From contig NZ_CP076723.1 in the NCBI RefSeq assembly GCF_018986915.1, positions 3,769,501 through 3,833,500 of the forward strand: DNA of 64,000 nucleotides, in the 5' to 3' direction. A program made the position numbers and the translations under genes. The notes under the pieces are model-generated. The model had not been told where the DNA came from, made no database searches, and worked only from the letters and a program-made list of their open reading frames with translations. This document shows positions 15,650-63,906 of this stretch, piece after piece; positions within the stretch are counted from its first letter, which is position 1, and every line of letters begins with the position of its first letter. This DNA is from Geomonas oryzisoli (GTDB lineage: Bacteria; Desulfobacterota; Desulfuromonadia; Geobacterales; Geobacteraceae).

Positions 15650-16003
15650 TCAACTGAACGCCGTGCAGTACCCCCAGTAAATTCCACCGCCTACTACGAC
15701 GAGCAGCACCACGTGCTTGATCACCAGCATCTTGCGCCTGGTCTTCTCGGTCTCGGCACCGTAGAAGTTGTCCACGTAGGTGAAGCTGCGCATCCCGCCG
15801 GTGGCGAAGATGACCACGGCAGCTCCGACGCTGTTCCAGAAGAAAAAATGCTCGATCTGCGTCAGGGTCCCGGCGACCGGCGGTGCCTCCAGCCGATAGC
15901 CGTGCAAAAGACGGATGGCGATCAGCGCGGAGAGCCAGTAACCGGTCATGAAATCGTGGATGAAACCGTTCAGAACGACGGCGATTTTTTTAATCCTATC
16001 CAT
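15650..16003 (-). CDS. Small four-helix membrane protein with conserved histidines
   Basis: This 117-residue protein is mostly hydrophobic, with about four helices. Notable residues are His in GFIHDF, RLLHGY, QIEHFF and VIKHVV. The same pattern (HD near the N-terminus, KHV in the last helix) recurs in the 155-residue protein at 54791-55258, and both follow a radical SAM gene. The end resembles CopD-like membrane proteins, and paired histidines could bind heme or metal. I do not assign a function. SD GAGGAG precedes the ATG, and 18 bases separate it from the radical SAM stop. Confidence 0.7.
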   Translation of the reverse strand: MDRIKKIAVVLNGFIHDFMTGYWLSALIAIRLLHGYRLEAPPVAGTLTQIEHFFFWNSVGAAVVIFATGGMRSFTYVDNFYGAETEKTRRKMLVIKHVVLLVVVGGGIYWGYCTAFS

Positions 16004-16021
16004 TGCGCTCCTCGAGCCGTG

Positions 16022-17545
16022 TCAGGGGATCGGCGCAAAGGTGTGGGGGTGCGACTGGGCATCATCCTGCGCCCGCTGCATCCCCTTCACGCTTTTGACC
16101 AGCGCCTGCACCTCGGGCGGCATCTGCCCACCCTGCTTCATCATGGCCCGCATCTGGCCGGCCAGGTACGAGTTGTTGATCAGGATGTCGAACACCGCGA
16201 GCATGAACTCCTGCTTCCAGGGGGAAAGCTGGTGCAGGTTCTGGAACTTGTGCATGAAGAACTTCTGGCTCGCCCTGCCCAGCTCGCGCTCCAGCTCCTC
16301 CAGCGTCATGTTTTTCGGCTTGATCACCGGTTCCACCAGGTTGTACTTGCGGAAGTCCGTGGTCGCCACGTACGGCTCCAGCTCGGGGTAGAGCTCGGCG
16401 TAGGGCCACGGTGCGATGGCGAGGAAGAAGGCCATGTCCGGGTTGTAGTGCTTGGCGAGCTCGATGGTCTTCGCGATGCTCTCGGGGGTGTCGTCCGGCA
16501 TCCCCAGCACGAAGGAGGTCTCCGACACGATGTCTGCGTTGTTGATGATGTCGATGGCCGCCTTGGACTGCTCCACCTTGGTGTTCTTGTTGAAGAGGTC
16601 CAGGGTTTCCTGGTCCCCCGCTTCCACACCGACGTAGATGTGCTCCACGCCCGCCTCGCGGTACTTATCCATGATGTCCGCGTCGCGCAGGATGTCGTCG
16701 ACGCGGGTCTCCATGAGGAGCTTCACGCCGACCTTGCGTTCGATCATCAGGTCGAGGATGCGCACCCAGCGCTCGCGGTCGAACGTCGGGATCTCGTCGG
16801 AGAGCATGGCGACCTCGACGCCGTAGCTGTCGCGGAGAAGCTCCAGTTCCGCCACGAAGTTCTCGGCACTCCTCGCGCGCCAGGAGCGCTCCCAAAAGAG
16901 CTGCTGCGAGCAGAACGAGCACTTCTCCATGCAGCCGCGCGAGGAGGAGACGATCGCCAGACGCGCATTGTTCTTGGCGCGGTAGCGGTAGATGGGCCAC
17001 TCCACCAGGTCCCAGGCCATGGGGAGCGAGTCGAGGTCGGCGATGGGGGCGGCCTTCGGCGTCGCGACCACGGCGCCGTCGCGCCAGAAGGAAAGCCCGG
17101 GCACGGTGGCGGGGTCGCCGCCGGCATTCAGGCAGTCGAGCAGCTTGACCAGGGTGACCTCCCCCTCGCCGCGCACCACGAAGTCGACCGTGTCGTGCTC
17201 CGCCTTCAGGATCTCGTCGTAACAGAAGGTGGCGTGGACGTTGCCGTGCACGGTGACCACCTGCGGGTTGATCTTTTTCGCCAGCGCGGTCAACTCCAGC
17301 GCGTGCGCGATGGAAGCGGTGAAGGAGGTGGTGGCGACCACGTCGGGTGCGAAGGCGCGCAGGCGCTCCTCGATCTCCGGCCACTTGTGCCACAGGCTCA
17401 TGGCGTCGTAGTAATCGACCTCGTACCCCGCGGCACGCAGCGACCCGGCGATGTAGACGAAGCCGACGTTGAGCCAGGTCCCGGCCGACTCGACGACACC
17501 GGAGTGGTACGGCGGCGTGACCAGGGCAACTCTTTTAATGCTCAT
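16022..17545 (-). CDS. B12-binding radical SAM protein, BchE-like (A)
   Basis: The 507 residues comprise an N-terminal cobalamin-binding-type domain (about 1-150) and a radical SAM barrel with the cluster motif CMEKCSFC (Cys 205, 209, 212) followed by SQQLFWERSWR. Several features recall BchE, the anaerobic Mg-protoporphyrin ester cyclase: PPYHSG near the N-terminus with an Ala-Gly-Thr-Trp turn, YDAM at 46-49, CSQ plus FW after the cluster, and NPDMAFFLAIAPWPY. The organism shows no sign of phototrophy, so the substrate is unknown. Two paralogues lie at 45837-48771. It is divergent from the LuxE-like gene. Radical SAM call certain, BchE likeness from memory. Confidence 0.88.
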   Translation of the reverse strand: MSIKRVALVTPPYHSGVVESAGTWLNVGFVYIAGSLRAAGYEVDYYDAMSLWHKWPEIEERLRAFAPDVVATTSFTASIAHALELTALAKKINPQVVTVHGNVHATFCYDEILKAEHDTVDFVVRGEGEVTLVKLLDCLNAGGDPATVPGLSFWRDGAVVATPKAAPIADLDSLPMAWDLVEWPIYRYRAKNNARLAIVSSSRGCMEKCSFCSQQLFWERSWRARSAENFVAELELLRDSYGVEVAMLSDEIPTFDRERWVRILDLMIERKVGVKLLMETRVDDILRDADIMDKYREAGVEHIYVGVEAGDQETLDLFNKNTKVEQSKAAIDIINNADIVSETSFVLGMPDDTPESIAKTIELAKHYNPDMAFFLAIAPWPYAELYPELEPYVATTDFRKYNLVEPVIKPKNMTLEELERELGRASQKFFMHKFQNLHQLSPWKQEFMLAVFDILINNSYLAGQMRAMMKQGGQMPPEVQALVKSVKGMQRAQDDAQSHPHTFAPIP

Positions 17546-17808
17546 AACCTGTTCCTTGTTTATGTGGAAGCTGTAATCGAAGAAACGTTTCTGCTTATTT
17601 TTGCATTACAATATGCCATACATGACGAAAAAATGAAAATGAAAAGACTCATTTATAATCGCTTTAATATCTGCATTACTAAATCGGAACCTGACACAGC
17701 CAGGCAGGCCTGATGATACAGTACAGGACGGGCGATTCTGCTTAAAATGTGCGCAGAAGTCCAGTTCGAAAAAGGAAATTTGCTTAACTAATAGTCACAA
17801 TAATAGTC

Positions 17809-17876: not shown

Positions 17877-19355
17877 ATGTCCGAGACACAGAGCCTGAGC
17901 CACCGTCTCACCGACGAAATCGTCGCCATCATCGAAGCCGGAGTGGACGCCGAGCTGAGCGATGAGAGGTTCAACGACTACTGCATGCAACTCTTCGAGC
18001 TGCAGTACAACAGCAACGCCATCTTCCGCGAGTTCTGCGACCTGAAGAAGGTCCGCCCGGGCGACATCAGCCGCTGGCAGGACGTTCCCATGGTCTACAA
18101 CGACGTGTTCAAGACCCACCTGGTGGCGTCATTCCCGCTGGAGCAGTCGGTGATGGCCTGCCTGACCGGCGGCACCACGAGTCTCACCCAGCGCGGCCGC
18201 ATTTTCCGTGACGAGGACGGCAAGAGGCTCGTCTTCGGCGCCAACAAGATGATGACCAACTCCTTCCTGTTCCCGGACTTCGAGGAAGGGAAGCGCTGCC
18301 GCATCCTGATCCTCGCGCCCAGTCCGGAGATGGCCCCTTCCATGGGGATGGCCATCGGCATGGACCAGACCCGCCAGGCCTTCGGCACGCCGGACAGTAT
18401 GTTTCTTCTCGGCAAGACCGGTATCGACGTAAAGAACCTTTTGAAGGCGCTGCGTGAATCCGAGGCGAGCGGCGTCCCGGTGGCGCTCATCGGCGCAACC
18501 GCCGCCTACGTCTACTTCTTCCAGGCCTGCCGCAGAAAGAAGATCACCTTCAAGCTCCCCGCCGGCAGCCGCGTCTGCGACGGCGGCGGGTACCGCGGCC
18601 GCTTCGGCGTGGTCACCCGCGACGACTACTACAACATGGTCCAGGAGATCCTCGACGTGCCGCGCCACTACTGCGTGAACGTTCTGGGCGAGGCGGAAAC
18701 CGCGACCAACCTGTTCGACGACGCGCTGCGCCGTCACGTCAAGGGGCTTCCCGAGAAGAAGCTGGCCCGCCCGGTGCCGCCGTGGTCCCGCGTACTGGCC
18801 ATGAACATCGACGACCTGTCCCCGCTTCCCGACGGCGAGGTCGGGCTTTTGGCCCACTGGGACTTGGCCAACGTCCCGACCGTGCTGGCCGTCATCACCG
18901 ACAACCTGGGCTACACCACCGACAACGGCCGAAGCTGCGAGATGGTCGGCCGCGCCAAGATTGAGAACGGCAAGGTTTCGCCGCTGCCCGACGAGGAGCG
19001 CACCATGGGACCCATGGGCGACTCCGCCATCTTCCGCATGCTGGAGACCTACACCAACTTCTCCATCGACCTGAAGATGCGTCTGGCGAAGGACCCGAAG
19101 ATGGCCCCTAGCGTGCGCGAGGAGATCGAGGCGCGCCCCGGCTCGGTCGCCTCCTGTCCGCAGGTGGTGGACGAGATCCTCGTTTCGCAGGCGGACAAGG
19201 AAGCCGCCGAGCTGCGTGACCGGTCGCTTGGTGCTTTCAAGGACCAGACCGAGCGCCCGCTCGACTGGTTCGTAACCGAAGCCGAAAAGCAGAAGCTGGT
19301 CGATCACCCCGCCGGGCTCCAGTCGGAAAAGCCGGCGCCGGAGCAGAAGAAGTAG
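17877..19355 (+). CDS. LuxE-like acyl-protein synthetase (adenylate-forming)
   Basis: The 492-residue soluble protein resembles the LuxE/PaaK branch of adenylate-forming enzymes, which activate a carboxylate with ATP and pass the acyl group to a protein. Visible are LTGGTTSLTQRGR (about 97-109), fitting the nucleotide-binding loop, a central GGGYRGRFG segment, GEVGLLAHWDLAN near 320, and a late GRAKIENGK. The last 60 residues are charged and probably disordered. No reductase or acyl carrier is adjacent. It stands alone between two radical SAM genes, with its own promoter and terminator. The acyl substrate is unknown. Confidence 0.72.
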   Translation: MSETQSLSHRLTDEIVAIIEAGVDAELSDERFNDYCMQLFELQYNSNAIFREFCDLKKVRPGDISRWQDVPMVYNDVFKTHLVASFPLEQSVMACLTGGTTSLTQRGRIFRDEDGKRLVFGANKMMTNSFLFPDFEEGKRCRILILAPSPEMAPSMGMAIGMDQTRQAFGTPDSMFLLGKTGIDVKNLLKALRESEASGVPVALIGATAAYVYFFQACRRKKITFKLPAGSRVCDGGGYRGRFGVVTRDDYYNMVQEILDVPRHYCVNVLGEAETATNLFDDALRRHVKGLPEKKLARPVPPWSRVLAMNIDDLSPLPDGEVGLLAHWDLANVPTVLAVITDNLGYTTDNGRSCEMVGRAKIENGKVSPLPDEERTMGPMGDSAIFRMLETYTNFSIDLKMRLAKDPKMAPSVREEIEARPGSVASCPQVVDEILVSQADKEAAELRDRSLGAFKDQTERPLDWFVTEAEKQKLVDHPAGLQSEKPAPEQKK

Positions 19356-19582: not shown

Positions 19583-20917
19583 CTACCTCTGCCTCTTCGC
19601 CCGCACCGACTCCCTGTTCGCCTTCCACTGCTCGAAGGCGATTTTCACGCCCTTTCGCACCGGCAGCTGCGACATGAGCGACAGGATGTGCGCGTAGGGG
19701 AAACCGGCCATGGGGACCTTCATCATGTGCCGCAGCACCCGGGGGAGACTCAACTGCTCCAGGAGGCTGATGTAGAAATGCTCTTCCCTCAGCTCCGGCG
19801 TCATCATCGGATCGGGATGATCGAAGAGCGCGTAGGAGCCGTTGTAGTACTCCCACCCAAGCTCGGGATAGATGTAGGGCTCGTACTCGCGGGAAAGCAC
19901 CGTCCCCGGGTAGGGGACCACCAGCGACGGGTGCATGGAAACGCCCAGCCTATCAGCCACCTCGACTGCGCGCTTGAAGTCGTCGAAGGTATCCTCGCGC
20001 GATCCAAGCATGTAGAAGAGCGAGACATCGATGCCGTGGTCCTTCAGGGTCCTGACCGCGCGCTCACGGTCCACCCCGATCTTGCCGTTGGCCTTGTACG
20101 CCTTGAGGCTCTTCTCGGAGATGGCGTCCCAACCGACCCAGACCGACAACAGGCCGCTCTCGCGCGCAGCGTTCAGCATGCGCGATCCTTCCGGCGCCAG
20201 CACGGGGCCCAGGCTGCCGAAGGCCATGTACTTCTTGGGGCTTCCCTTGAGCGCGGTGAAGAGTTCGATGGCGCGCTTGGTCTCGGAGCTCCACCAGATG
20301 TTCTCGTCGCCGATCTCGTACATCTTCTCGGGGATGGCGGCCACGTCGCGCACCACGTCCTCGATGGGACGGAAGCGGATCTTGGCGCCGAAGAAGGGTT
20401 TCACCGAGCAGAAGGTGCAGTTGAAGGGGCAGCCGCGCGAGGTGTTGACGATGCGGAACTGGTGGTTGTTCTTGAGCATGCCGTAGAGCGGCGTCGGCAT
20501 GTTGATGAGCTCCAGCTGCTCGCCCCGGTAGAAGGACTGCAGTGTCCCGGCACGGAAATCCTTGAGGACCTGCGGCCAGCAGCTCTCCGCCTCGCCGATG
20601 ACCACGGCGTCGCCGTGCGTCTTCGCCTCCTCGGGCATGGCCGAGGCGTGCATGCCGCCGAAGACCACCTTGATGCCGCGCGCCCTGAGGGAATCCGCGA
20701 TGTTGTAGCCTGAGACCGCAGTGGGGGTCAGGATGCTGATGGCGGCGAGGTCGCAGTCGACGCTCTTGTAGGCGTCGGGGGTCGCGCTGCCGGAAATCAG
20801 CTGGATCTCGATGGAGGGGTCCGCCTGGCGGGTCAGCGCCGCCAGGTATTCCAGGATTGGGGGAGCTACCGGTGTCCAGCCGAAGGGAAGCGGCGGAAAG
20901 ATGATGCAAAGTTTCAT
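19583..20917 (-). CDS. B12-binding radical SAM protein, second subfamily (B)
   Basis: The 444 residues comprise a cobalamin-type Rossmann domain (IIFPPLPFGWTPVAPP start, GGMHASAMPEEA near 87-98) and a radical SAM domain with CPFNCTFC (Cys 163, 167, 170) followed by SVKPFFG. It belongs with the proteins at 55258-56598 and 58709-60028. The three share PPxLEYLAxLT near residue 20, a GWE/GWD-S segment in the barrel, PYPGT and a tail beginning GFPxxHI. The substrate is unknown. It is the last gene of a unit starting with ccsA at 22321, 31 bases behind a secreted protein. Confidence 0.88.
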   Translation of the reverse strand: MKLCIIFPPLPFGWTPVAPPILEYLAALTRQADPSIEIQLISGSATPDAYKSVDCDLAAISILTPTAVSGYNIADSLRARGIKVVFGGMHASAMPEEAKTHGDAVVIGEAESCWPQVLKDFRAGTLQSFYRGEQLELINMPTPLYGMLKNNHQFRIVNTSRGCPFNCTFCSVKPFFGAKIRFRPIEDVVRDVAAIPEKMYEIGDENIWWSSETKRAIELFTALKGSPKKYMAFGSLGPVLAPEGSRMLNAARESGLLSVWVGWDAISEKSLKAYKANGKIGVDRERAVRTLKDHGIDVSLFYMLGSREDTFDDFKRAVEVADRLGVSMHPSLVVPYPGTVLSREYEPYIYPELGWEYYNGSYALFDHPDPMMTPELREEHFYISLLEQLSLPRVLRHMMKVPMAGFPYAHILSLMSQLPVRKGVKIAFEQWKANRESVRAKRQR

Positions 20918-20948: not shown

Positions 20949-21461
20949 TTACAGGTCGAGCTTCTTGTTGGCGTAGATGGCATCCACCACACCCTTGATG
21001 TCGGAGATGGGATATGCCGTGGTCTTGCCGTCCTTGGTCTGCACGGTCCTCGACGCCATGACGATACCGTACTCGCCGCTGGGATAGATGACGAACTTCA
21101 GCACCACCCCCTTCTCGGCGATACCGGCCCGGCGCCCCTTGAAATCAAACCACCCGGTCGGGCTGGAGCCGCGGAAGTCGACATAGAAGTTGCCGGCCGC
21201 GCCACGGGTCTCGTACCAGTGTTTCTCTTTGAAGTAGCCGTACTTCTCGAAGGCGTCCCCGATCTTCTTGTTGGGGTAACCCGGCAGGGTGGCATCCTTG
21301 ATGACGTCGGCCATAGGCCTGGCGGGCCCGAGGCCGCCCGTGCCGCCGCCGTGCGGGCTGATCATGGAGGGCCGGTTCATCATGATTTCCGGTGACGGCG
21401 ACGCGAACACGCCGGAAACGACAAAAAGCACCAGTAAGAAGGGGACGAACATTATGCGCAT
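20949..21461 (-). CDS. Secreted protein of unknown function
   Basis: The 170 residues start with a clear signal peptide (MRIMFVPFLLVLFVVSGVFA) and continue as a soluble periplasmic protein with a glycine-rich segment (HGGGTGGLG) and a likely beta-rich C-terminal half. There are no cysteines or heme motifs in the mature part. I do not recognise the family. It sits between ccsA (29 bases upstream) and a radical SAM gene (31 bases downstream), which points to a periplasmic role linked to cytochrome maturation. SD TAGGAG precedes the ATG at 21461. Confidence 0.75.
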   Translation of the reverse strand: MRIMFVPFLLVLFVVSGVFASPSPEIMMNRPSMISPHGGGTGGLGPARPMADVIKDATLPGYPNKKIGDAFEKYGYFKEKHWYETRGAAGNFYVDFRGSSPTGWFDFKGRRAGIAEKGVVLKFVIYPSGEYGIVMASRTVQTKDGKTTAYPISDIKGVVDAIYANKKLDL

Positions 21462-21490
21462 GCGGTGAATCTCCTACCAAAGAAACTGAA

Positions 21491-22321
21491 TCAGTGCTGA
21501 ATCCTGAAACCGGCGTGGAAGGTTTCGACGCCGAAGGGAATGCCCCAGTAGCTCACGATCATCACCACGACGGCGATGAGGGAATACCAGGCAAGCCTGG
21601 TGCCGCGCCAGCCGAAGGTGACCCGCAAATGAAGATAGATGCCGTAGATGAGCCAGGAGATGAGCGACCACACCTCGACCGGATCCCAGTTCCAGTAGTT
21701 GCCCTTGACGGTGTTGGACCAGTAGGCCCCGGAGATGATCATGAGGCCGTACATGATGAAGCCCCCCGCGACGAAGCGGTAGGACAGCCTGTCGATGGTC
21801 GCAAGCTCCGGCAGTTTCGCCGCGAGCCCCGCGTCGTTTCTCTCCTTGAAGAGATACAGAAAGCCCATGCCGGCAGCGAGGAGGACCGAGGCGAAGCCGA
21901 TGGTGGCGCCGGTGATGTGGACCCAGATCCAGCCGCTTTGCAGGGCGGGGGCGATGGTCGCCGCGACCTCCTTCAAAAGCGTACCCGCCCACCCCAGAAG
22001 GACGAAGGCCACCGGCATGACCAGCGCGCCCAGCGGCAGTACCTTCTTGATGGTGAACTCGGAAATGAGGAAGATGAGGACGGTCATGAACACGCCCAGG
22101 CTGAGGGACTCGGAGATGGAGATGAACGGGGTCACCCCGGCCCCCGAAGCGGCCCAGCGCATGGCGATCGCTATGACGTGAGGGATGAAGCCGGCCAGTG
22201 CGCTAAAGAGACCGGCACGGAACAGCTTGTCATAGTTCGCGATGAACCCGAAGATGTAACAGAATGTGCTCAAGCCATACAGTGCAACGGCTGTCCAGAA
22301 AAACAAGAGTTCGGCTTTCAT
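21491..22321 (-). CDS. ccsA: CcsA-type cytochrome c biogenesis protein
   Basis: The 276-residue multi-spanning protein has the tryptophan-rich heme-handling motif WNWDPVEVWSLISW (near 213-226) and the flanking histidines typical of CcsA/CcmC-family heme transporters. It should work with a ResB protein to deliver heme for cytochrome c attachment. No ResB is directly adjacent. The nearest is the ResB-like gene at 24528-25676 on the same strand, beyond two plus-strand genes. I chose the ATG at 22321 (SD GGAGGTGA). An upstream in-frame start at 22384 would add an unlikely charged leader. Confidence 0.93.
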   Translation of the reverse strand: MKAELLFFWTAVALYGLSTFCYIFGFIANYDKLFRAGLFSALAGFIPHVIAIAMRWAASGAGVTPFISISESLSLGVFMTVLIFLISEFTIKKVLPLGALVMPVAFVLLGWAGTLLKEVAATIAPALQSGWIWVHITGATIGFASVLLAAGMGFLYLFKERNDAGLAAKLPELATIDRLSYRFVAGGFIMYGLMIISGAYWSNTVKGNYWNWDPVEVWSLISWLIYGIYLHLRVTFGWRGTRLAWYSLIAVVVMIVSYWGIPFGVETFHAGFRIQH

Positions 22322-22386
22322 CCATTCACCTCCAGAAGTAGGTTTCCGACAGTACTGCCCACTCAGGCTGTAGCGCCGGACCACCC

Positions 22387-22416
22387 ATTAAAACATGCAC
22401 CATCCTGCCATGTCAA
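22387..22416 (-). promoter_or_regulatory. Promoter of the ccsA unit
   Basis: On the minus strand a perfect -35 TTGACA (22411-22416), an 18-base spacer and TTTAAT (22387-22392, 5 of 6 consensus) lie 66 bases before the ccsA start. In the rest of the 22322-22544 divergent gap I see only the SD of the plus-strand gene. Confidence 0.6.
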
Positions 22417-22544
22417 ACCTTATGATTCCCGCCTGGTTTCAGCTTTTCCGCACACTGTAGCTCTTCTATGACAGCCCGGACGAGTCCCAAAGAGTAACGA
22501 TTGTCACCAGTATCAGGCCCTCGGTTCTGAAGGAGAGGAGACTC

Positions 22545-23264
22545 ATGCGCCTTGACGAAAAAGCCCTGTTCATTCATAGTGTGGCAGCGGTCCGGGACGC
22601 TGTTGTGCCGGCCGGAACCGCCGCGTCACACAGTCGTGCGCATCGGCCTGTGCGACCTGAAACCACTCCCGGGATTGCAACCATGTACCGACACAAAACC
22701 GTCTGGTCATTGGCAGCCACCGCCTTGCTTATCGCGGTCATTGCCGTTGACAACAATCATGGCACCGGCCACAGGATCTTCGCGCCAGGAAGAGAAACCG
22801 TCACCGTGGCATCGCCCGAAAAGGCATACCATGTATGGCAACACAAAGGGGTCAAGGGGAGGACGCTGGTTCTTTTCGACCGCTACCCGCACATGCACGG
22901 CCGCTTCAACTACGAGGGCGAGCCGCAACTGGAGCATTCCAACCTGATCGAGTACTCCATATTCCAGAATGTCATCCGCAAGCTCTATTTCATCGTCCCC
23001 GACGAGAACTGGGTGGAGTTTCTGCAGCAACCAACAACCAAGGTCATAAAGCCCATTGCGGGACTGGAGAGGGGCGTCTCGCTGTACGACCTGAACGGCC
23101 TCCCGATGATCGGAACCACGCCCTCGTCGCTGCCGCATATCCCCGAGCAGGTGCTGGTCTACATCAACGGCGACGTGTTCGACGCTAGACAGGCGCAGGA
23201 TCTGCTCACCCGCAAAGGCATCTCCAGCGACATCACCGTCATCTACCAGGGCAACCGCAAATGA
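22545..23264 (+). CDS. Membrane-anchored protein of unknown function
   Basis: The 239-residue product from ATG 22545 has a strong SD (AAGGAGAG). It would have 46 unusual N-terminal residues before a single membrane helix (about 54-69) and a soluble extracytoplasmic domain. A second ATG at 22683 starts just before the helix and gives a more ordinary anchored protein of 193 residues, but has a poor SD. The soluble part has no recognised domain. It overlaps the glycosyltransferase gene by four bases (ATGA), so the two are coupled and probably act together, perhaps in envelope glycosylation. Confidence 0.65.
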   Translation: MRLDEKALFIHSVAAVRDAVVPAGTAASHSRAHRPVRPETTPGIATMYRHKTVWSLAATALLIAVIAVDNNHGTGHRIFAPGRETVTVASPEKAYHVWQHKGVKGRTLVLFDRYPHMHGRFNYEGEPQLEHSNLIEYSIFQNVIRKLYFIVPDENWVEFLQQPTTKVIKPIAGLERGVSLYDLNGLPMIGTTPSSLPHIPEQVLVYINGDVFDARQAQDLLTRKGISSDITVIYQGNRK

Positions 23265-24490: not shown

Positions 24491-24527
24491 ATCGTGGCCG
24501 CCGGCCTGTTCCGGGTCCCGCGTCCAA

Positions 24528-29634: not shown

Positions 29635-29660
29635 TATATCTGCCTCCCCCCGCTTGGAAA

Positions 29661-54803: not shown

Positions 54804-55258
54804 CCGTCCCGGTTAAGGGTTGCGCGCAGTTCCGCGGGGAGACTTTCGGTGAGGCGTGCCACCTTGGCCTTCAGCTTCCTCCAGGCCAGGACACCCCACA
54901 CCACCAGGACCACCATGAGCACGTGCTTCACCATCAAGGCAGGCACCTGCTGCTTGTCGGCGAAGTGGTTCCACTCGAAGCTCACGTAGAAGATGGTGCG
55001 CGGCACGCCACCCAGGATGATCCACCAGAAGGCGAAGCGGAAGAACTTCACCATGAGCCGGTGTGTCTTCAGGAAGAAGAGCGCCGCCTCGGGTGTCGCG
55101 AGCGATGCCTCGACCCGGTGCGCCGCGTACAGGCAGAAGGCGGAGGCCGCCAGCATGGCCGTGGCGACATCGTGGAAGTAGTTGTTCATCATCACCGCGA
55201 CCCCGAGCCAGGGGGACTGCTGCAGCAGCGAGGTCAGGTACTGGTTCATTGCGTCCAT
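54791..55258 (-). CDS. Small membrane protein with conserved histidines (CopD-like?)
   Basis: The 155 residues have about four helices. NNYFHDVATAMLAASAF parallels NGFIHDFMTGYWLSAL in the 117-residue protein at 15650, and ALMVKHVLMVVLVV parallels MLVIKHVVLLVVV. Other histidines lie in YAAHRVEAS, LKTHRLM and EWNHFA. The C-terminus ends in a cysteine pair, DGCGC. A membrane heme or metal site is plausible. Its ATG shares one base with the radical SAM E stop (TAATG), giving the same radical SAM plus membrane protein order as at 16022/15650. Confidence 0.72.
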   Translation of the reverse strand: MDAMNQYLTSLLQQSPWLGVAVMMNNYFHDVATAMLAASAFCLYAAHRVEASLATPEAALFFLKTHRLMVKFFRFAFWWIILGGVPRTIFYVSFEWNHFADKQQVPALMVKHVLMVVLVVWGVLAWRKLKAKVARLTESLPAELRATLNRDGCGC

Positions 55259-56949: not shown

Positions 56950-58704
56950 TCACGGGCCTTTGCTCCTGCCAATGCACTGCGCGAGGTTCCTGCGGTACAG
57001 GTCGTTCTCCGGATCGAGACGCAGGGCTTCGACCAGGTGCTGTCGCGCCTCATCCATCCGCCCCTGCCTCTGGTAGAGCATGGCGATGTTGTTGTGAGCA
57101 TCCCCCGAGCGCGGGTTGAGCGTAAGGACGGTAGCAAAGGCTTGCAGCGCCTCGCCGAACCTGTTCTGCCCGAGGTAGAGCATGCCGAGGTTGTAATAGG
57201 TCTCCGTGAACCGGGGATCGAGGTTCAGGACAGCCTTGTACTCTCTCTCGGCCTCGCTGAATCGCCCCGTCTTGTCGTAGACCACACCCAGGTTGGTGCG
57301 GGCCTCGATGTTGTTCGGCCTGATACGCAGGGCCTCCGAGTACTCCCTAACCGCCTCGTCGTAGCGCCCCTGCGACTCGTACACCACGCCCAGGCTCGTG
57401 TGCCCCCCCGCGTCGCCGGGCGCATCGTGGACCCATCTCGCCTTGAAGACGGCATCGTTGTCCCAGGCGTGGTTGCGCTGGACGCTCGCAAAGGCGAGGA
57501 CCGCCACCAGGAGCCCTCCGGCCAGCAGTACCCCCCGCTGCCAGGATGCCGCCCCGTTCCGTTGCGCCATCCGCTTCCAGGCCATCAGCAGACCGGTACC
57601 CGCCAATAAGGCAAGCCCCAGGGAGGGGATGTAGAGATACCGCTCCGCCATGAGAGCCGGCACCAGCACGCCCGGTATCCCCGATACCGGCGCCAGGGTG
57701 ATGAGTATCCAGCACATGCAGAAGAAGATCCTGCGGTCGACCCTCCAGGCGAGGATCGTGGCAACGACCACGAGCAGGAGCGCGGCAAGCGGCACCAGCA
57801 CGTCAACGGCGAAGAAGCTCTGCTGCATCGGCAGGTCGTAGAACACCTTGAGGTCGGCCGGGACTACCAGGAGTCGCAGGTAGCGCACCAGCAGGCCGAA
57901 GGAGGTGTAGACCCGCTCAACCAGGGGGGGACCGCCCCAGGTCGCCGCCTCCAGGATCATCGTCCTAAGCAGCAAATACGGAATGGCGGCCAAGCCGAAC
58001 AACAGCGGCAGGCGAAGCCTGTTGCGCCAGGTTCCCGAGCCGAAAGAGAGCTCGTGCAGCAGGATGAGCGCTGGAAGCGTTATCGACATCTCCTTGGCGA
58101 GGAGCGAGAGGAAAAAGGTGCACAGGGAGAGGACGAGATCCGCCACCCGGCTCCCATCCTTGAAGCGAAGGTAGCAAAGGAAGGAGAGCAGCATGAAGAT
58201 GGCGCAGAGCGGCTCGTTGCGCGCCGCTATCCACGCCACCGCCTCGCTGTGGACGGGGTGCACTGCAAAAACCAGCGCCGCGAAGAAGGCGGCACCGTTG
58301 GAGCGCAGAAACTTCGCCGCGGCGAGGAAGCAGCAAAGCGACGCGGCAACGTGCAGCAGGGCGTTGGTCAGGTGATAGCCGAAGGGGTTTTCGCCCGAGA
58401 TGGCGTAATCCAGTGCAAGCGATGCCTTGAAGAGGGGGCGGTAGTAGGGTGCCGAGGTGACGTCGGTGAGGCTGCCGTACCAGACATCGGTGCTGAACAT
58501 GAGCGGCACGTTCAGCAGGCTGCGCACCAGAGAATCTTCCTTGATGAGGCGGACGTCGTCCCAGACAAGGCCCATGGAGAGGGTGTTGCCGTAGACGGCG
58601 AAGGCAACCAGGCACACGAGCGTCAGCAGTCCCCATACCGGGATCGCGGGGACACCGGGGGCGACGGTGCCGCATCCTTGCAGGTGGTCGTGTCGAGATG
58701 TCAT
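56950..58704 (-). CDS. TMTC-like membrane protein with C-terminal TPR repeats
   Basis: The 584-residue protein has about ten helices (residues 25-415). It has WDDVRLI in the first loop and HPVHSEAVAWI, resembling GT-C glycosyltransferases of the TMTC type. Four consecutive TPR units follow (about 430-565: SLGVVYESQGRYDEA, NLGVVYDKTGRFSEA, NLGMLYLGQNRFGEA, NIAMLYQRQGRMDEA). In TMTC proteins the helices transfer a sugar to protein and the TPR binds the target. Which protein is modified here is unknown. It follows radical SAM F by four bases, so the two are one unit. Confidence 0.78.
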   Translation of the reverse strand: MTSRHDHLQGCGTVAPGVPAIPVWGLLTLVCLVAFAVYGNTLSMGLVWDDVRLIKEDSLVRSLLNVPLMFSTDVWYGSLTDVTSAPYYRPLFKASLALDYAISGENPFGYHLTNALLHVAASLCCFLAAAKFLRSNGAAFFAALVFAVHPVHSEAVAWIAARNEPLCAIFMLLSFLCYLRFKDGSRVADLVLSLCTFFLSLLAKEMSITLPALILLHELSFGSGTWRNRLRLPLLFGLAAIPYLLLRTMILEAATWGGPPLVERVYTSFGLLVRYLRLLVVPADLKVFYDLPMQQSFFAVDVLVPLAALLLVVVATILAWRVDRRIFFCMCWILITLAPVSGIPGVLVPALMAERYLYIPSLGLALLAGTGLLMAWKRMAQRNGAASWQRGVLLAGGLLVAVLAFASVQRNHAWDNDAVFKARWVHDAPGDAGGHTSLGVVYESQGRYDEAVREYSEALRIRPNNIEARTNLGVVYDKTGRFSEAEREYKAVLNLDPRFTETYYNLGMLYLGQNRFGEALQAFATVLTLNPRSGDAHNNIAMLYQRQGRMDEARQHLVEALRLDPENDLYRRNLAQCIGRSKGP

Positions 58705-58708
58705 AGCA

Positions 58709-60028
58709 TCACTTTGCCTTGGCTGTCTCCAACGCCCGGAATTCGAGGAACGCCTTTCTCAGCGCCGCCTGCACGATCCCCGAGGCGATGTGCGCGTTGG
58801 GGAAGCCCTTCAGGGGGAGCGCCTTTAGCCTCCTCAGGATGCGGGGCCAGGTGAAGGAGTAGACCCAGAGCCGCTTCAGGGCCTCCTCGTGGGCGCGGTT
58901 GTCGCCGCCGTGCTGGGTCAGGATGGAATGCATGCCGTCATAGTAATCCCACTCCTCGAAGTGCAGGGTATCCTCGCGCAACTCCTGGTACATCGCCGTA
59001 CCGGGATAGGGCACCACCATCACCGGGTGCGGCGTGACGGCAAGGCGGTCGCACATCTCCAGCACCCGCTGGTACTCGTCCAGCGACTCGTTTTTTGAAC
59101 CGAGCATGATAAAGAGCACCACGTCGATGCCGTTGGCGCGGATCTTCTTCAGGGCCTCCTCGCGCTCTTCGAGCATCTTGGGGGTCGCTCCGTACTCTCT
59201 GAGGGTGGCGTCGGAGAAGCTTTCCCAGCCGATCCAAACCTGCATCAGCCCCGAGCGTCGTGCCCATCTGAGCATCTCCTCGCCCGACTGGTGCTGCACG
59301 GAGGCGATGCTGGTCTCGCCGACCCAGTGGATTCCCGGCAGCGACGTTGCCATTTCCCGGAACAGCTCGGTGTAACGCGGCACGCTGGGCCCCCAGCTGT
59401 CCGCGTCGGTGCAAAACCACATCTTGTGCTTGCAGCTGCCCAGATCGGCGATCACCTCGGGGATGGGGCGGTAGCGCATGTGGCCGCCGTGCAGTTCCGG
59501 TGTCGCGCAGAATTTGCAGTCGTAGGGGCAGCCCCGAGAGGTAAAGAAGGAACGGAACACATAGCCGGGAGCCAGGTCGCGCCGCGGGAAGGGGGCACCG
59601 TCCACCGGGAGAAGTTGACCGTGGTAGAACGGCTGCAGCTCGTCGCGCTGCACGTCCTCGAGCACGGTCGCCAGCACGCTCTCGGCCTCCCCCACCACCA
59701 CGCTGTCGGCGTGCTGTTTGGCCTCGTCCGGGAGCACCGACGGGTGCGGCCCGCCGAGCATCACCTTGACGCCGCGGGCGCGGAGACGGTCGGCGGTGCG
59801 GTAGGCCCAGGAGGACTGGTGGGTGAGGATGCTGATGCCGACGACGTCCGCGCGCAGGTCATCGACCTCGAAGCGTTCGACATTGGCGTTGATGAGACGG
59901 ATCTCGGCGTCGGGGCGGATGCTGGAAGTCAGACCGGCGAGATATTCGAGGACCGGCGGCATGAGCGGCATGCTCCTGACCTGCGTGCCCGCGTGTCCCA
60001 AGGGTGGAAAGATGTAGATGATTTTCAT
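58709..60028 (-). CDS. B12-binding radical SAM protein, second subfamily (F)
   Basis: The 439 residues start IIYIFPPLGHAG, with MPPVLEYLAGLT, GGPHPSVLPDEA (92-103), CPYDCKFC (Cys 167, 171, 174) followed by ATPELHGGHMRYRPI, a GWESFSD segment, VVPYPGT and the tail GFPNAHIASGI. It is closest to E and B in this window. The ATG at 60028 has AAGGAAC six bases upstream. An in-frame ATG at 60046 lacks an SD. It is cotranscribed with the TMTC-like gene, unlike B and E, which neighbour CcsA or membrane proteins. Confidence 0.88.
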   Translation of the reverse strand: MKIIYIFPPLGHAGTQVRSMPLMPPVLEYLAGLTSSIRPDAEIRLINANVERFEVDDLRADVVGISILTHQSSWAYRTADRLRARGVKVMLGGPHPSVLPDEAKQHADSVVVGEAESVLATVLEDVQRDELQPFYHGQLLPVDGAPFPRRDLAPGYVFRSFFTSRGCPYDCKFCATPELHGGHMRYRPIPEVIADLGSCKHKMWFCTDADSWGPSVPRYTELFREMATSLPGIHWVGETSIASVQHQSGEEMLRWARRSGLMQVWIGWESFSDATLREYGATPKMLEEREEALKKIRANGIDVVLFIMLGSKNESLDEYQRVLEMCDRLAVTPHPVMVVPYPGTAMYQELREDTLHFEEWDYYDGMHSILTQHGGDNRAHEEALKRLWVYSFTWPRILRRLKALPLKGFPNAHIASGIVQAALRKAFLEFRALETAKAK

Positions 60029-60100
60029 GCGTTCCTTTTCCTGCACTTACCTTCCCCTGACGGGCTATTCACAGGAACACCTCGGTCGCCAGGGCGACAT

Positions 60101-60165
60101 TCCCTCCCCCGGAGGGGGAGGGTTAGGGAGGGGGAAAGCTGTTACAGCCCCTCCGGGGAGAGGAG
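60101..60165. repeat. GC-rich repeat, family R4, copy 4
   Basis: One full unit (60101-60138, tail GGTTAGGGAGGGGG) and a partial reverse unit (60148-60165) lie in the 175-base gap between radical SAM F and the resB stop. I see no separate promoter or terminator in the gap. Confidence 0.75.
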
Positions 60166-60203
60166 CACTACGCCGCACGTGGAGGGGAATCGAACGCGGT
60201 TTC

Positions 60204-61547
60204 TCAACCGTGCTTTGTGAGCGCCGCCACCGTCCGGTCAAACTCGTCTTTGGCCAGTGCCTGGTAGAAGTCTCCCCGTGCGGATAGTTCGAGCACCTCG
60301 CCGTTTGCCGTTTGGCGCACCACCCCGGTGATCTCCCGGCGGTAGTACACCAGGCGCCAGATGAGGGCGATAAGCGCCAGCACGAAACCGGCGTAAATAA
60401 ACTCGCGCCCATACTCCTTGGTCACCAAAAGCCGCACCCAGAAGTTCTGCTCTTTGAAGCCAAGGCGTAGGCCGTTGTCCAGGAGCACCGCCTCGCCGGG
60501 ATGCACCGTACCAGATGCCACCGCCTTGCCGTCCCGGGTGACCTCGAGATGAAAAGCAGGGTTCTTGAATTCCTCGCTCCTGGTGGCGTCCTTGCCATCG
60601 GTGACCACGTGGTCGGGGTAGTACCAGGCTGCGACGTCATACCCCTGCATCCGGAAGTGGTCCCGCTTTCCCTTCAGCACGTCCAGCTTCACGTAGGCGC
60701 CGTCGATCTCTTTTCCCGAGGCGTCCTGGACCACGAACAGCGGCGAGATGCCCAAGTCGTTGAAGAGCACGGAGGCGTAGCCGGTCTTGTACGGCTCGTT
60801 GATGTCGACCTGGTGCGTCGCGCCGGCCTCGTCCTTGAGGACGATCTTGATGCCGGTCGCCACCCCCTGTGAAACCTCTGGGCGCACCGACTCCAGCAGG
60901 AACTTGACCTCGGGCGGTCCGCCTCCGGAGCGGGGGAGCTTCGGGGACGCGTTGTAGCGCGCAAGCTCACCCAAAAACGGCTCGTGCTCGGCGATGTCGA
61001 CGAAACCGGTAAAACGACTGTAGAAGAGAATCAGCGCGCCGACGAGCAGCAGGAAGAAGCTCAGGTGGAAAACGAGTGTCGCCAGAGGGGAGAGGCGGTT
61101 CTTGACGGCAAAAAATCGCTCCCCCCCGCCATAGACCTCGTATCCCTGGGCGGCAAGCATGGCGGGGATGCCTTCGGCGTCCCCCTCTGCAAGCTCCACG
61201 GTGTAGTTGAAGGGACCGTTGCCGTGTCGCGCGAGCACCTTCTCCGGGTGGACGTTCACCTTGGCGAGCACCAGCGGGATGCGCTGCTTCATAACCAGCA
61301 ACAGGTTAACGAAGAACAAGCCCCAGATGACGAAGGTGACCGGAGCGGTGAAGATGGCGGTCAACTGAAGCGTCTCGTCGATGCGCGCCAGCACGGGCGC
61401 TGCCGCCTGCCACTTCAGGTAGGCCGCCTTCCCCACCACCGAGCGCTGGGGGAGGAAGAAGCCGATGGAGAACACCGCGATGAGGGCGACGATGAGCCAG
61501 ATCGTGCAGCGCAGCGACCCGAGGTATTTGAGCGTGGACTTGAGCAT
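60204..61547 (-). CDS. resB: ResB, cytochrome c biogenesis protein
   Basis: The 447-residue protein is a full ResB. It has two N-terminal helices (about 13-32, 64-85), a third (about 158-180, HLSFFLLLVGALILFYS) and a last near 393-412, enclosing a large periplasmic domain. That domain has FVDIAEHEPF, INEPYKTGYASVLFNDLG and HPGEAVLLDNGLRLGF. It lies six bases behind ccsA, so the complete system II synthase is encoded here as ccsA-resB. This is the best candidate in the window for the main heme attachment machine serving the giant cytochromes. Confidence 0.92.
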   Translation of the reverse strand: MLKSTLKYLGSLRCTIWLIVALIAVFSIGFFLPQRSVVGKAAYLKWQAAAPVLARIDETLQLTAIFTAPVTFVIWGLFFVNLLLVMKQRIPLVLAKVNVHPEKVLARHGNGPFNYTVELAEGDAEGIPAMLAAQGYEVYGGGERFFAVKNRLSPLATLVFHLSFFLLLVGALILFYSRFTGFVDIAEHEPFLGELARYNASPKLPRSGGGPPEVKFLLESVRPEVSQGVATGIKIVLKDEAGATHQVDINEPYKTGYASVLFNDLGISPLFVVQDASGKEIDGAYVKLDVLKGKRDHFRMQGYDVAAWYYPDHVVTDGKDATRSEEFKNPAFHLEVTRDGKAVASGTVHPGEAVLLDNGLRLGFKEQNFWVRLLVTKEYGREFIYAGFVLALIALIWRLVYYRREITGVVRQTANGEVLELSARGDFYQALAKDEFDRTVAALTKHG

Positions 61548-61553
61548 GGCCCC

Positions 61554-62393
61554 CTACGACATCTTGAAGACGTGCACCGAGCTTTTCATCAGGATCGAGA
61601 CGCCGAAGAAATTGATGATGACCGTGAGGAGTGCCGCGATCATGAGCCAGGAGAAGCGGGTGCCGCGCCACCCCATGGTGACGCGCAAATGGATCGCAAC
61701 GCCGTACATGAGCCAGGAGATGAGCGACCAGGTCTCGACCGGGTCCCAGCTCCAGTAGGCGCCCCAGAGGTCCTTGGCCCAGATGGAGCCGGCGGCGATC
61801 ATGATGGCGTTGGTGATGAAGCCGAAGACCAGGTACTTGAACATCAGGTCGTCCAGCCGCTCGGGTGAGAGGTCCGCGAAGCGATCATCGGCGCTGGCAG
61901 TGCCGCGCGCGGCGGCGCGTTCTTTCAGGAGGTAAATCACGCCCGCCGCCATGGCGAGCACGTAGGCGCCGAAGGAGAGCCAGGCGAAGAAGACGTGGAT
62001 GGCGAGCCAGAAGGATTTCAGGGTCGCGGCCATGGGGGCGAGGGTCGGGTTGCGCATCACGCCGTACCCCATGATGAGCATGGTGGTGGGCACGGTGGCG
62101 ACCGCGAACACCCGCAGCGATTTCTGGCGCCAGGCGACGAAAAGGGTCGAGGCGATGATGAACCAGCCTCCCATAAGCCCGTTTTCGTAGTCCGTGCTCC
62201 AGGGGAAATGCCCCTGCGCGTAGTAGCGTGCCGCCACGGCGCCGGTGTGGACCAGCAGGCCGATGCCGATCAGCACGAGCAGTTTGGGCACCACCTTCTC
62301 GTTCCTGAACACGAGGGCGTAGATGTACCCGCCCGCGGACAGGGCGTAGATCACCAGGGAGAGCCAGAAACAAATCGCTTCGTAGTAGGCCAA
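61554..62393 (-). CDS. ccsA: CcsA-type cytochrome c biogenesis protein
   Basis: The 279 residues form about eight helices, with the heme-handling motif YWSWDPVETWSLISW (near 215-229). Histidines flank it, for example in LAIHVFFAWLS before the motif and AIHLRVTMGW after it. It is directly upstream of resB. Compared with the CcsA at 21491 it shares the WDPVE-TW/VW-SLISW core and the HLRVT-GWRGTR stretch, so the two are paralogues. The start at 62393 precedes a classical first helix. Confidence 0.94.
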   Translation of the reverse strand: MAYYEAICFWLSLVIYALSAGGYIYALVFRNEKVVPKLLVLIGIGLLVHTGAVAARYYAQGHFPWSTDYENGLMGGWFIIASTLFVAWRQKSLRVFAVATVPTTMLIMGYGVMRNPTLAPMAATLKSFWLAIHVFFAWLSFGAYVLAMAAGVIYLLKERAAARGTASADDRFADLSPERLDDLMFKYLVFGFITNAIMIAAGSIWAKDLWGAYWSWDPVETWSLISWLMYGVAIHLRVTMGWRGTRFSWLMIAALLTVIINFFGVSILMKSSVHVFKMS

Positions 62394-62420
62394 GCCGTCA
62401 CCTCACGTAAAAACCTGATT

Positions 62421-62497
62421 CACAGGGATAAAAGGGATAGAGGGGATGGAAACCAAAACGCTTGTTTTTTATCCCTTGTATCCCCTTTATCCCTGTT
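62421..62497. repeat. Paired inverted repeat, family R3 (AGGGATAAAAGGG units)
   Basis: A forward arm, CACAGGGATAAAAGGGATAG and onward (62421-62449), and a reverse arm (62468-62497) form a long AT/GG-rich stem. The reverse arm reaches into the stop codon of the upstream gene. It fills the gap before ccsA. Confidence 0.75.
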
Positions 62498-63395
62498 AAA
62501 TAGCCTTTCGTCTCACCACAGCCAGTACCGCCACCACTGCGAACAGCACGGCCGCAGCCTGCATCGCCACCACCCCGCGCCGGGTGCGGATCTCCAGGAG
62601 GGCGAACTTGCGCTGGTCCTCGATGCTGACCTCCATCCCCTGCACCGCAACCTTTTGACCCAGGCGGACGCTCCCGTCGTAGAGGCCCAGCTTGCCGCGC
62701 CGCACCGCCAGGTGGAAGAGATCTTTGCCCTCGCCGTTAGACTTGTCACGGCTCAAAAGAAACTGGTACGGCAGCGTGTCGAACCCGAAGACCTGCTCCC
62801 CCTGGGCCAGGTCGACCTTCACGTAGGAGCGCTCCAGTTCACCTTTCTCTTTGCTGCTCACGACTATAAGCGGCGCCAGGGCCGAGCCCTTGAAGCGGAC
62901 CTCGCTGGAGCCGAGAGCGCGCCAGTTGGTGTCTATCTCGGTCCCCACCCCCTTCTGCACGATCACCGCCCGCCCCTTCTTGCCGTCTGGCTCGACGCGG
63001 GTCAGCGTGAAGGAGACCTGGGGAAAGGGCGCCAGTCCCCCTTTGTGGCCGGAGCTGAAGGAGGTCGGGAACGGCTCGTAGCTCTCCCCCTCGGCCAGGC
63101 TCAGCGCACCCTCGAAGTGGAAAAGATAGGAGTAGGTTGCGGTCGTAAGCAGCAGGAACCCGGCCAGGCAGAGGCAAAGCTGCCCGCGGGAGCGCTGCAA
63201 CAGCGCGGTCACCAGCGTGGCCAGTAGTCCCAGCGCAAGGAGCACTCCCCAGAACCGGACCACGGTCAAGTCGAGCAACGACCAGCCCGGTTTCACGGCA
63301 CCGGCGGCAACAAGCACAAGGGACCACAACAACAGGGACAGGGCAAGACCGAGGGTCATCAAGGGGATGATCTTTTTGCTCTGCAGGCTAGGCAC
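62496..63395 (-). CDS. Short ResB-like membrane protein
   Basis: The 299 residues have helices at about 12-33, 45-66 and 72-93, a periplasmic domain, and a last helix near 277-294. FEGALSLAEGESYEPFP after the third helix parallels FRGAMRLTEGETVQNG in the ResB-like protein at 24528, so I place it in the same family, though about 80 residues shorter. No heme motifs. It overlaps the upstream secreted protein gene by eight bases and precedes ccsA and resB, completing a four-gene maturation operon. Confidence 0.65.
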   Translation of the reverse strand: MPSLQSKKIIPLMTLGLALSLLLWSLVLVAAGAVKPGWSLLDLTVVRFWGVLLALGLLATLVTALLQRSRGQLCLCLAGFLLLTTATYSYLFHFEGALSLAEGESYEPFPTSFSSGHKGGLAPFPQVSFTLTRVEPDGKKGRAVIVQKGVGTEIDTNWRALGSSEVRFKGSALAPLIVVSSKEKGELERSYVKVDLAQGEQVFGFDTLPYQFLLSRDKSNGEGKDLFHLAVRRGKLGLYDGSVRLGQKVAVQGMEVSIEDQRKFALLEIRTRRGVVAMQAAAVLFAVVAVLAVVRRKAI

Positions 63396-63906
63396 CTTTT
63401 TTCACCCCGCGATCTGACTCTCGAACCGGTTCGCATTGCTGCACCAGCCATCGACCACCCTGCTGCAGCAGTCTGTAGCGCATCAGTGAGCCGGTACCGT
63501 GCACCTGCCCTACTTCCTTATAGGTCTTGCCGTCCTTGTACTGGTAGTTCCACTCTTCCTTGACCAGTACCGTCGCGGAGAGCGGTCCGTCCTGCTTCAC
63601 GCTGCGGAAATCCAACGAGGCGATGTCGTACACCAGCACCTGCCCGCCGACCCAGAGCGAACCGGAGTCGGTGACCAGGCTGTGGCGCATGCCGACGGTG
63701 GCAGGCACGGCACCAATGCCCCGCTTATCCCCCTGCGAGGCATAGATGTCCATGAAGCGGTTGTTGAACTCCGTCACCGCCGCCTTGATCCGATCGGTCT
63801 CGTCCAGTGCCGGGACCGCTTTTCCTGCGAGGTAACGGAAGTAAGCGCCGTCACCGGAGGCAAAAGCAATTAGGGGAAACAGGGCGAGCGGCAGCAGCAG
63901 AGCCAA
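63388..63906 (-). CDS. Secreted protein of unknown function (start uncertain)
   Basis: The 172-residue version from TTG 63906 begins inside a signal peptide and lacks the positive residues a signal needs. The frame stays open upstream to a TAG near the window edge without ATG or GTG. A CTG at 63936 with GGAGGA upstream would give MLFKGSDKTYLLALLLPLAL as start, a much better signal peptide. The mature domain (FNNRFMDIYASQGD, then an alpha/beta pattern with LVKEEWNYQYKDGK) resembles NTF2-like folds. It overlaps the ResB-like gene by eight bases. Confidence 0.6.
   Translation of the reverse strand: MALLLPLALFPLIAFASGDGAYFRYLAGKAVPALDETDRIKAAVTEFNNRFMDIYASQGDKRGIGAVPATVGMRHSLVTDSGSLWVGGQVLVYDIASLDFRSVKQDGPLSATVLVKEEWNYQYKDGKTYKEVGQVHGTGSLMRYRLLQQGGRWLVQQCEPVRESDRGVKKGA

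Follow-up and report, generated by a model that had tools for sequence, protein, structure and literature searches.

Two paralogous gene modules and an array of giant cytochromes

We analysed a window of 64,000 nucleotides from the 4.85-Mb, single-contig genome of Geomonas oryzisoli (Geobacteraceae, Geobacterales, Desulfobacterota; contig NZ_CP076723.1, positions 3769501–3833500), in which genes for ResB-CcsA cytochrome c synthases, cobalamin-binding radical S-adenosylmethionine (SAM) proteins and giant multiheme cytochromes share the stretch from window position 15650 to 63906. A set made up of ResB, CcsA, a small CopD-like membrane protein and radical SAM proteins of two families, here called A and B, is present twice, as the paralogous modules I and II. 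The mixed gene content described in the original prediction was borne out by Pfam matches, motif counts and hhalign, with the corrections given below. The genes numbered g01–g31 lie on the minus strand unless marked otherwise.

Module I (g01–g06 and g09) comprises the CopD-like g01 (15650–16003; weak PF05425 match), the family A protein g02 (16022–17545), the LuxE-like adenylating enzyme g03 (17877–19355, plus strand; PF04443), the family B protein g04 (19583–20917), the CcsA g06 (21491–22321; PF01578) and the ResB g09 (24528–25676; PF05140), along with g05 (20949–21461), a small protein without Pfam match that is kept at other module I loci. Module II (g16–g24, g26 and g28–g30) has two family A proteins, g16 (45837–47303) and g17 (47350–48771, where 48771 is the more likely start), two family B proteins, g24 (55258–56598) and g26 (58709–60028), the CopD-like g23 (54791–55258), the ResB g28 (60204–61547; PF05140) and the CcsA g29 (61554–62393; PF01578), which sits ~13 kb from g17. 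It also contains two extra, remote ResB-like proteins, g18 (49178–50410) and g30 (62496–63395), and a FetABCD-like set consisting of the FtrD-like (DUF2318) membrane protein g19 (50407–51741; PF10080), the ATP-binding cassette (ABC) ATPase g20 (51735–52412; PF00005), the FtsX-type permease g21 (52409–53569; PF02687) and the FtsX/MacB-type permease g22 (53571–54803; PF02687 and PF12704), matching the DUF2318/FtsX/ABC grouping noted at the outset. Neither g18 nor g30 has a Pfam match, and both align by hhalign to the g28 family (98.6% and 95.4% probability), compared with 10.2% and 45.8% for the g09 family and at most 0.7% for five unrelated families; the predicted tally of two CcsA and four ResB-type proteins thus holds. 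Starts and stops touch or overlap, again as predicted, at several junctions (25676, 50407–50410, 51735–51741, 52409–52412, 54791–54803, 55258 and 63388–63395).

The five cytochrome open reading frames (ORFs), at 27187–45478, are g11 (27187–29634; 10 CX2CH and 2 CX4CH motifs), g12 (29661–34277; 9 CX2CH and 2 CX4CH, with a long N-terminal part that lacks heme motifs), g13 (34349–38704; 26 CX2CH, 2 CX3CH and 9 CX4CH), g14 (38846–41722; 21 CX2CH, 1 CX3CH and 5 CX4CH) and g15 (41834–45478; 23 CX2CH and 1 CX4CH). Motif counting gives 89 CX2CH, 3 CX3CH and 19 CX4CH, so that the 111 heme sites first reported stand if the longer spacings are counted, and fall to 89 as canonical CX2CH sites; no CH dipeptide in these five proteins lies outside a CX2CH, CX3CH or CX4CH motif. 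A hairpin followed by T residues, resembling an intrinsic terminator when read by eye, lies between g16 and g15, and the cytochromes therefore probably start a new transcript.

The cytochrome array reaches past the original bounds and runs on to contig position 3876857, ~43 kb beyond the window end. This continuation (contig 3833619–3876857) holds seven more multiheme ORFs in two sets, with 9, 37 and 23 and with 9, 37, 21 and 23 CX2CH motifs; the two 37-CX2CH proteins (~2200 aa) carry 19 CX4CH each as well, and two heme-free ORFs (682 and 719 aa) resemble part of g12. The whole array amounts to 248 CX2CH motifs, or 318 counting CX3CH and CX4CH. Three copies of the 23-CX2CH cytochrome occur (window 41834–45478; contig 3849105–3852740 and 3873159–3876809), with 100, 99 and 93% identity to the query, and their near identity suggests recent duplication or gene conversion. 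The nearest named relatives of g15 belong to Geomonas species (82–85% identity in full-length matches), and the array has the same gene order in another genome (G028), in opposite orientation on the contig.

Family A radical SAM proteins are a sister group of BchE

All six cobalamin-binding radical SAM proteins named in the original prediction match both PF02310 and PF04055. The genome has 18 PF02310 places, of which six lie in this stretch, against ~0.18 expected in 48 kb; because the six genes form two families of three, duplication contributes to this clustering. Within family A, g16 and g17 share 38% and 41% identity with g02; within family B, g24 and g26 share 40% and 39% with g04. Family B has only weak matches to named models. 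Against the BchE model (TIGR02026), g02, g16 and g17 score 390–398 bits and the next protein of the genome 174, and in the ranking of named models on family A, BchE reaches 393 bits and the next model 156.

BchE acts on Mg-protoporphyrin monomethyl ester and serves to build chlorophyll. Family A has the same two domains, for cobalamin binding and radical SAM chemistry, and the three-cysteine motif (Cys205, Cys209 and Cys212 of g02), and BchE is its nearest named family. A 39-row tree joins 25 family A rows, taken from the order and the phylum, to four BchE rows as sister groups (96/88), and the other ten radical SAM rows fall outside; family A thus forms a sister clade to phototroph BchE rather than a branch inside it. 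The BchE rows were taken from plasmid records, three of them adjoining ppsR/bchJ, bchJ or puhE/hemN, and the ten rows outside the clade include one Allocoleopsis protein that carries a 'bchE' label, the other nine being further radical SAM proteins. Long outer branches make the order of the outgroups unsure; the join of family A with BchE is not among the branches flagged for this. Identity between family A and BchE is ~34–38%, compared with at most 31% to the other radical SAM rows, and Tyr13, His14, Gly22, Met49, Trp183, Glu342 and Pro410 (g02 numbering) are common to both groups and found in none of the ten others. Ten positions are fixed differently in BchE and family A. The setting differs as well: family A is linked to ResB/CcsA and cytochromes, and no bacteriochlorophyll gene was found among the window ORFs scanned. 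In vitro BchE activity has been reported in a 2026 preprint (PMC13142503).

Family A genes keep company with ResB, CcsA and matched CopD-like genes

Of 48 genomes from the bacterial family, 31 have family A at E ≤ 1e-60; in 28 of these there are members at E ≤ 1e-190, and none falls between 1e-195 and 1e-73. Across the order, 74 of 141 genomes have it at E ≤ 1e-85, and no hit lies between this threshold and 1e-168. Of 395 genomes sampled across the phylum, 13 have it at E ≤ 1e-120, and seven of the 13 lie beyond the order. Genomes were sampled and many are fragmented, the search profiles were built from small seed alignments, and the genome sets and CcsA counts were compiled by hand; family A types were assigned by profile coordinates, plus BLAST at fetched loci. 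Hits of g02 type less than 3 kb apart, taken as split frames, were merged, and loci cut by contig ends, of which there are many (for example L077, L088, L093 and L104), count as misses.

At the 60 g02-type loci so defined, CcsA or ResB lies within 10 kb in 45, and in 30 of the 36 that have at least 8 kb on both sides. Taken singly within the same distance, CcsA is found at 43 loci, ResB of two sorts at 17 and 20, the CopD-like g01 at 36, a cytochrome with at least four CX2CH motifs at 27, LuxE at 27 and a g04-type family B gene at 25. The chance figure for a CcsA within 10 kb is 2.3% (207 genes over 48 genomes), or 4.3% at the highest density, compared with the 43 of 60 observed. Genomes with family A also have more CcsA genes (median 5 versus 3; inside the genus, p=0.002).

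Eight loci lie outside the order. Within the stretch retrieved, seven of these have a ResB-type match (some weak, at 39–57 bits) together with a cytochrome of at least six CX2CH motifs, and six of the seven also have CcsA; at the eighth, on an 11.8-kb contig, family A adjoins family B and none of ResB, CcsA or a cytochrome is present. The co-occurrence of radical SAM and cytochrome genes across related genomes, on which the original prediction had staked its case, is therefore found both in the order and at seven of the eight loci beyond it. The most complete module seen outside the order (L109, genome G377) is an unbroken series of a 9-CX2CH cytochrome, family A, a ResB-type gene, CcsA, a g23-type CopD-like gene, family B and another ResB-type gene.

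The family A subtypes are matched to CopD-like subtypes. Among the 141 genomes, 52 have both g02-type A and g01, 2 have A only, 4 have g01 only and 83 have neither; for g16/g17-type A and g23 the corresponding counts are 43, 5, 0 and 93. The crossed pairs are much looser (27/27/16/71 and 29/19/27/66). Of 58 g01 copies, 47 are on the same contig as a g02-type A gene, and all 47 lie within ~10 kb of it, 38 within 1 kb. LuxE is present in 33 of the 54 genomes with g02-type A, and in three genomes without g02-type A.

The neighbourhoods of module II genes were covered at nine g16-type and eight g17-type places (ten loci) and at four further loci (L113–L116), out of 48 genomes with such genes. A cytochrome with at least four CX2CH motifs lies within 10 kb at three of the nine, two of the eight and one of the four (L113). 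A Fisher test set the 45 of 60 g02-type loci with CcsA or ResB against 2 of 10 other loci, with L113–L116 outside the comparison. The proposal of one dedicated assembly line is thus partly supported: the link to cytochrome maturation is well supported, but there are two modules, and in other genomes those of type II often lie apart from cytochromes. In genome G009, g23 is ~32 kb from the g17-type gene and the two still co-occur, so that module II resembles a single pathway split between two sites. In the same genome a response regulator and a histidine kinase (L031:16675–18495) lie between the g17- and g16-type genes; ORFs of similar size separate the pair in L045, L050, L054 and L062, and none lies between g16 and g17 in the window. 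At L113 (genome G008, 21152–25435), cytochromes with 9 and 8 CX2CH motifs lie near a g16-type gene, making it one of few g16/g17 loci outside Geomonas with multiheme cytochromes close by.

One CcsA type has lysine in place of a WWD tryptophan

An alanine scan of Helicobacter hepaticus CcsBA reports that W828, W833, K842 and E843 of the WWD domain are required (PMC6299221); by spacing, these fall at positions 201, 206, 215 and 216 of g06. The W828-equivalent Trp is kept in g06 and the second Trp is Lys; g29 has both tryptophans. Counting distinct genes, 51 module CcsA were compared, 26 of g06 type and 25 others; among the aligned rows (53, 27 and 26, respectively) g06 and g29 each appear twice, once as seed and once as locus row. 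Lys occupies position 206 in all 26 g06-type proteins. Trp is found there in all 25 other module CcsA, all 10 housekeeping CcsA, all 20 further controls (four housekeeping-like and four located 11–15 kb from a family A gene) and five of the six CcsA that lie beyond the order; the sixth is divergent. A g04-type gene lies within 8 kb of all 26 Lys-type CcsA and of none of the 25 others; the second CcsA of genome G033, ~10.6 kb from a g04-type gene, has Trp. LuxE alone is not tied to the Lys-type (loci L087, L105 and L108).

Some readings of the CcsA sequences were discarded. A repeated origin of the Lys-type was ruled out, because all of these proteins form one clade. At the K842 position, V, T or I is present in 51 of 51 module CcsA and Lys in 10 of 10 housekeeping CcsA; the Val found there was ruled out as a mark of family A, because 16 of the 20 further CcsA also have V, T or I. 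H63 was dropped as a candidate for TM-His2, since spacing puts TM-His2 at H231 and H63 in a loop. Mapped in the same way, P-His1, TM-His2 and P-His2 are H135, H231 and H269, and are kept in 26 of 26 Lys-type CcsA; of the 26 rows (25 distinct genes) of the other module type, 18 retain H269. An FHLSF histidine is present in g09 and g28, with none such in g18 and g30, and its equivalence to TM-His1 is by position only.

The modules resemble the System II synthase (ResB-CcsA or CcsBA) in having both subunits and, in the Lys-type CcsA too, the P-His1, TM-His2 and P-His2 positions, and differ from it in the company of CopD-like and radical SAM proteins and, for g06-type CcsA, in the Lys that replaces a required WWD Trp. 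For Geobacter, a 2009 paper put forward dedicated ResB/ResC pairs that accompany multiheme cytochromes (PMC2700814), and the present modules share with that proposal the idea of private synthases for neighbouring cytochromes; the words 'radical SAM' and 'BchE' are absent from the main text of that paper.

Further CcsA and ResB sequences deserve mention. At L106 (genome G193), a CcsA-like protein near family A has a strongly altered WWD motif (YYSSRLHGSWWVWD), possibly an independent change of heme handling. A housekeeping-type CcsA lies just outside the left window edge (contig 3768402–3769034), next to which an ORF at the edge itself (1–1183) is ResB-like, with 58 bits against the g28 family profile. 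The two CcsA genes of the window have a 177-bp DNA stretch in common (21587–21763 and 61647–61823, 76% identity), the sole direct repeat family of at least 60 bases found in 15600–64000.

Accessory proteins of the modules

The CopD-like proteins g01 and g23 are homologous by hhalign (g23 to the g01 family, 96.1%), and both have weak CopD matches. The PF05425 score of g01 is 17.8 bits, below the gathering score of 32.1, and with E values allowed up to 5, 10 of 12 g01-family members have a match, the best at 1.2e-6. Across 12 rows, the CopD-like family has invariant Asn, His-Asp, Arg, Tyr and Lys-His positions, among them two invariant histidines. Single-sequence structure prediction for g01 was poor (pLDDT 60.7, pTM 0.37), and a search of solved structures with the g01/g23 profile returned nothing credible. 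The LuxE-like label proposed for g03 was upheld by PF04443 (59 bits, cut-off 24.9), and g03 stays below the NCBIfam LuxE equivalog cut-off (57.9 versus 550).

The ABC/FtrD set of module II resembles FetABCD of the Campylobacter Fet cluster in its DUF2318/FtrD-like protein, two ABC permeases and one ATPase; FetABCD is described as needed for low-iron growth, and its authors propose a relay of reducing power (PMC10783030). Here ResB/CcsA, CopD-like and radical SAM proteins stand instead of the other Fet components: scans of g01–g26 and g28–g31 gave no Pfam match to FetM (Ftr1) or FetP, and, unlike in the Fet cluster, no thioredoxin family was found among the window ORFs scanned. Around the FtrD/ABC set of genomes G029 and G024, stretches of 40 kb and 20 kb, respectively, were inspected and contain no multiheme cytochrome.

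A possible tetrapyrrole-tailoring branch of cytochrome c maturation

The gene families, the sister relation to BchE, the subtype-matched co-occurrence, the synteny and, in one CcsA, the altered heme-binding motif are computed results, and the link of the radical SAM modules to cytochrome c maturation is well supported. Beyond this link, we tentatively propose, with slightly less than even confidence, that the modules combine cytochrome c maturation with tailoring of a tetrapyrrole. Radical SAM enzymes are cytoplasmic, heme is made in the cytoplasm, and CcsA/ResB carry heme through the membrane; tetrapyrrole tailoring is favoured by this cytoplasm-to-membrane order together with the relatedness to BchE and the change in the WWD motif. 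The radical SAM enzymes would alter a tetrapyrrole, most likely heme or a precursor, at a propionate or neighbouring carbon in a BchE-like manner, and the LuxE-like g03 might activate a carboxylate such as a heme propionate. The CopD-like protein, whose two invariant histidines could hold a tetrapyrrole, would pass the product to the membrane, where the dedicated ResB-CcsA pair would export it and join it to CXXCH and CX4CH sites. For the FtrD/ABC set we infer, as for the order of these steps, a role in either reductant supply or tetrapyrrole export; a relay of reducing power would suit the reduced cysteines needed for heme attachment. A bolder form of the proposal, which is possible but doubtful, holds that heme c in the giant cytochromes of Geobacteraceae and related bacteria is of a new kind, produced by a BchE-type radical SAM enzyme (in module I together with a second radical SAM enzyme and a LuxE-like enzyme that activates a carboxylate) and attached by private CcsA enzymes, of which one type has its WWD motif changed to fit.

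Other explanations have to be set against tetrapyrrole tailoring. The radical SAM enzymes could instead modify the cytochrome polypeptides, for example by cytoplasmic C-methylation before export, leaving ResB/CcsA to attach ordinary heme. Cobalamin radical SAM enzymes of pathways for ribosomally synthesized and post-translationally modified peptides do methylate peptides, the models ApyD and rSAM_ocin_1 reach 138 and 101 bits on family A, and the synteny and co-occurrence are consistent with this explanation; we nevertheless consider it unlikely, given that BchE is by far the best named match and the sister group of family A, and that the WWD change concerns the handling of heme rather than of peptide. 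Synthesis or alteration of a lipid or glycan that anchors or coats extracellular cytochromes would make use of the radical SAM, LuxE-like and glycosyltransferase-like GT-C genes, and finds support in weaker matches to the lipid-acting HpnR, HpnJ and ladderane-type models, in the PMT-type g08 and the LuxE-like g03, and in the labels GTC25 and GTC08 at 13 and 12 of the 60 g02-type loci. These GT-C genes are variable, far less constant than CcsA/ResB or g01, the near-obligate partner g01 (52 of 54 genomes) is CopD-like and no lipid enzyme, and the g06 WWD change would be left unexplained, which makes a lipid or glycan role quite improbable.

The private ResB/CcsA might also serve unusual motifs such as CX4CH, which are common in cytochromes of the order, with the radical SAM genes being neighbours of unrelated role; the private pairs proposed for Geobacter would agree with this. 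However, the A-linked cytochromes outside the order (L105–L112) have no CX4CH and family A stays with ResB/CcsA there, for which reason we rejected the idea that the radical SAM genes are present on account of CX4CH motifs, and the A and CopD-like subtypes are matched genome by genome; we regard this as the least probable of the alternatives. For module II alone, the FtrD/ABC set could be a Fet-like iron uptake system that feeds the iron demand of the cytochromes independently of maturation. The likeness to FetABCD speaks for such a function, but no FetM or FetP family was found among the window ORFs scanned, and g23 and ResB-type/CcsA genes are constant company of the set in G009, G029, G024 and G028; iron uptake seems somewhat unlikely.

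Several findings weigh against tetrapyrrole tailoring itself. At 390–398 bits, family A stays below the BchE equivalog cut-off of 481.35 bits, and a tetrapyrrole is its putative substrate. Since the Lys-type CcsA are one clade, their match with g04 amounts to a single evolutionary event, and family A is not the only setting in which Lys is lost from the K842 position. CcsA and ResB are both missing within 10 kb at 15 of the 60 g02-type loci, only some of which are at contig ends, and one or the other is found at only one of nine g16-type, two of eight g17-type and two of four further loci (L115 and L116). The p-values of the matched pairs (~1e-31) carry no correction for the relatedness of genomes, and cytochrome-rich genomes without family A exist (G011 and G038). 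Published Geobacter nanowire structures with heme c show ordinary heme.

Searches of one open-access library showed no paper in which cytochrome c maturation is connected with BchE-like or cobalamin radical SAM proteins. What the present analysis adds is the link to radical SAM enzymes, the CopD-like partners matched to them and the WWD motif change; dedicated ResB/ResC pairs had been proposed in 2009. Tetrapyrrole tailoring, if true, would mean that ideas about how extracellular cytochromes set their redox potential, stack their hemes and contact minerals need rethinking, and that the usual heterologous production in Escherichia coli with Ccm genes would yield the wrong cofactor. Even if no new heme is made, radical SAM enzymes tied to System II would add a previously undescribed step to the assembly of cytochromes c. 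The modules also offer a lead on a question stated as open, the purpose of several ResB/ResC pairs in Geobacteraceae (PMC2700814), and the matched pairs, the BchE kinship and the Lys-for-Trp change permit short direct tests in culturable species.

Other genes and elements of the window

Two GT-C membrane proteins had been predicted: g08 (23261–24490, plus strand) is indeed of PMT type (PF02366 and PF13231), and g25 (56950–58704), a membrane protein with C-terminal tetratricopeptide repeats (TPRs), matches TPR-type families only, which leaves its GT-C label unconfirmed. No family match was obtained for g07 (22545–23264, plus strand), and no significant one for the small protein g31 (63388–63906). 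An ORF at 60065–60412 overlaps g28 in another frame, and g10 (25676–27043) encodes a PD40 beta-propeller protein (PF07676). At gathering scores, Rfam searches of the window and the next 60 kb gave only a thiamine pyrophosphate (TPP) riboswitch and one tRNA, and revealed no regulatory link. The riboswitch (9384–9485, 77 bits) lies upstream of an ORF at 9592–11217 and of an ORF at 11428–12738 that looks ThiC-like by eye.

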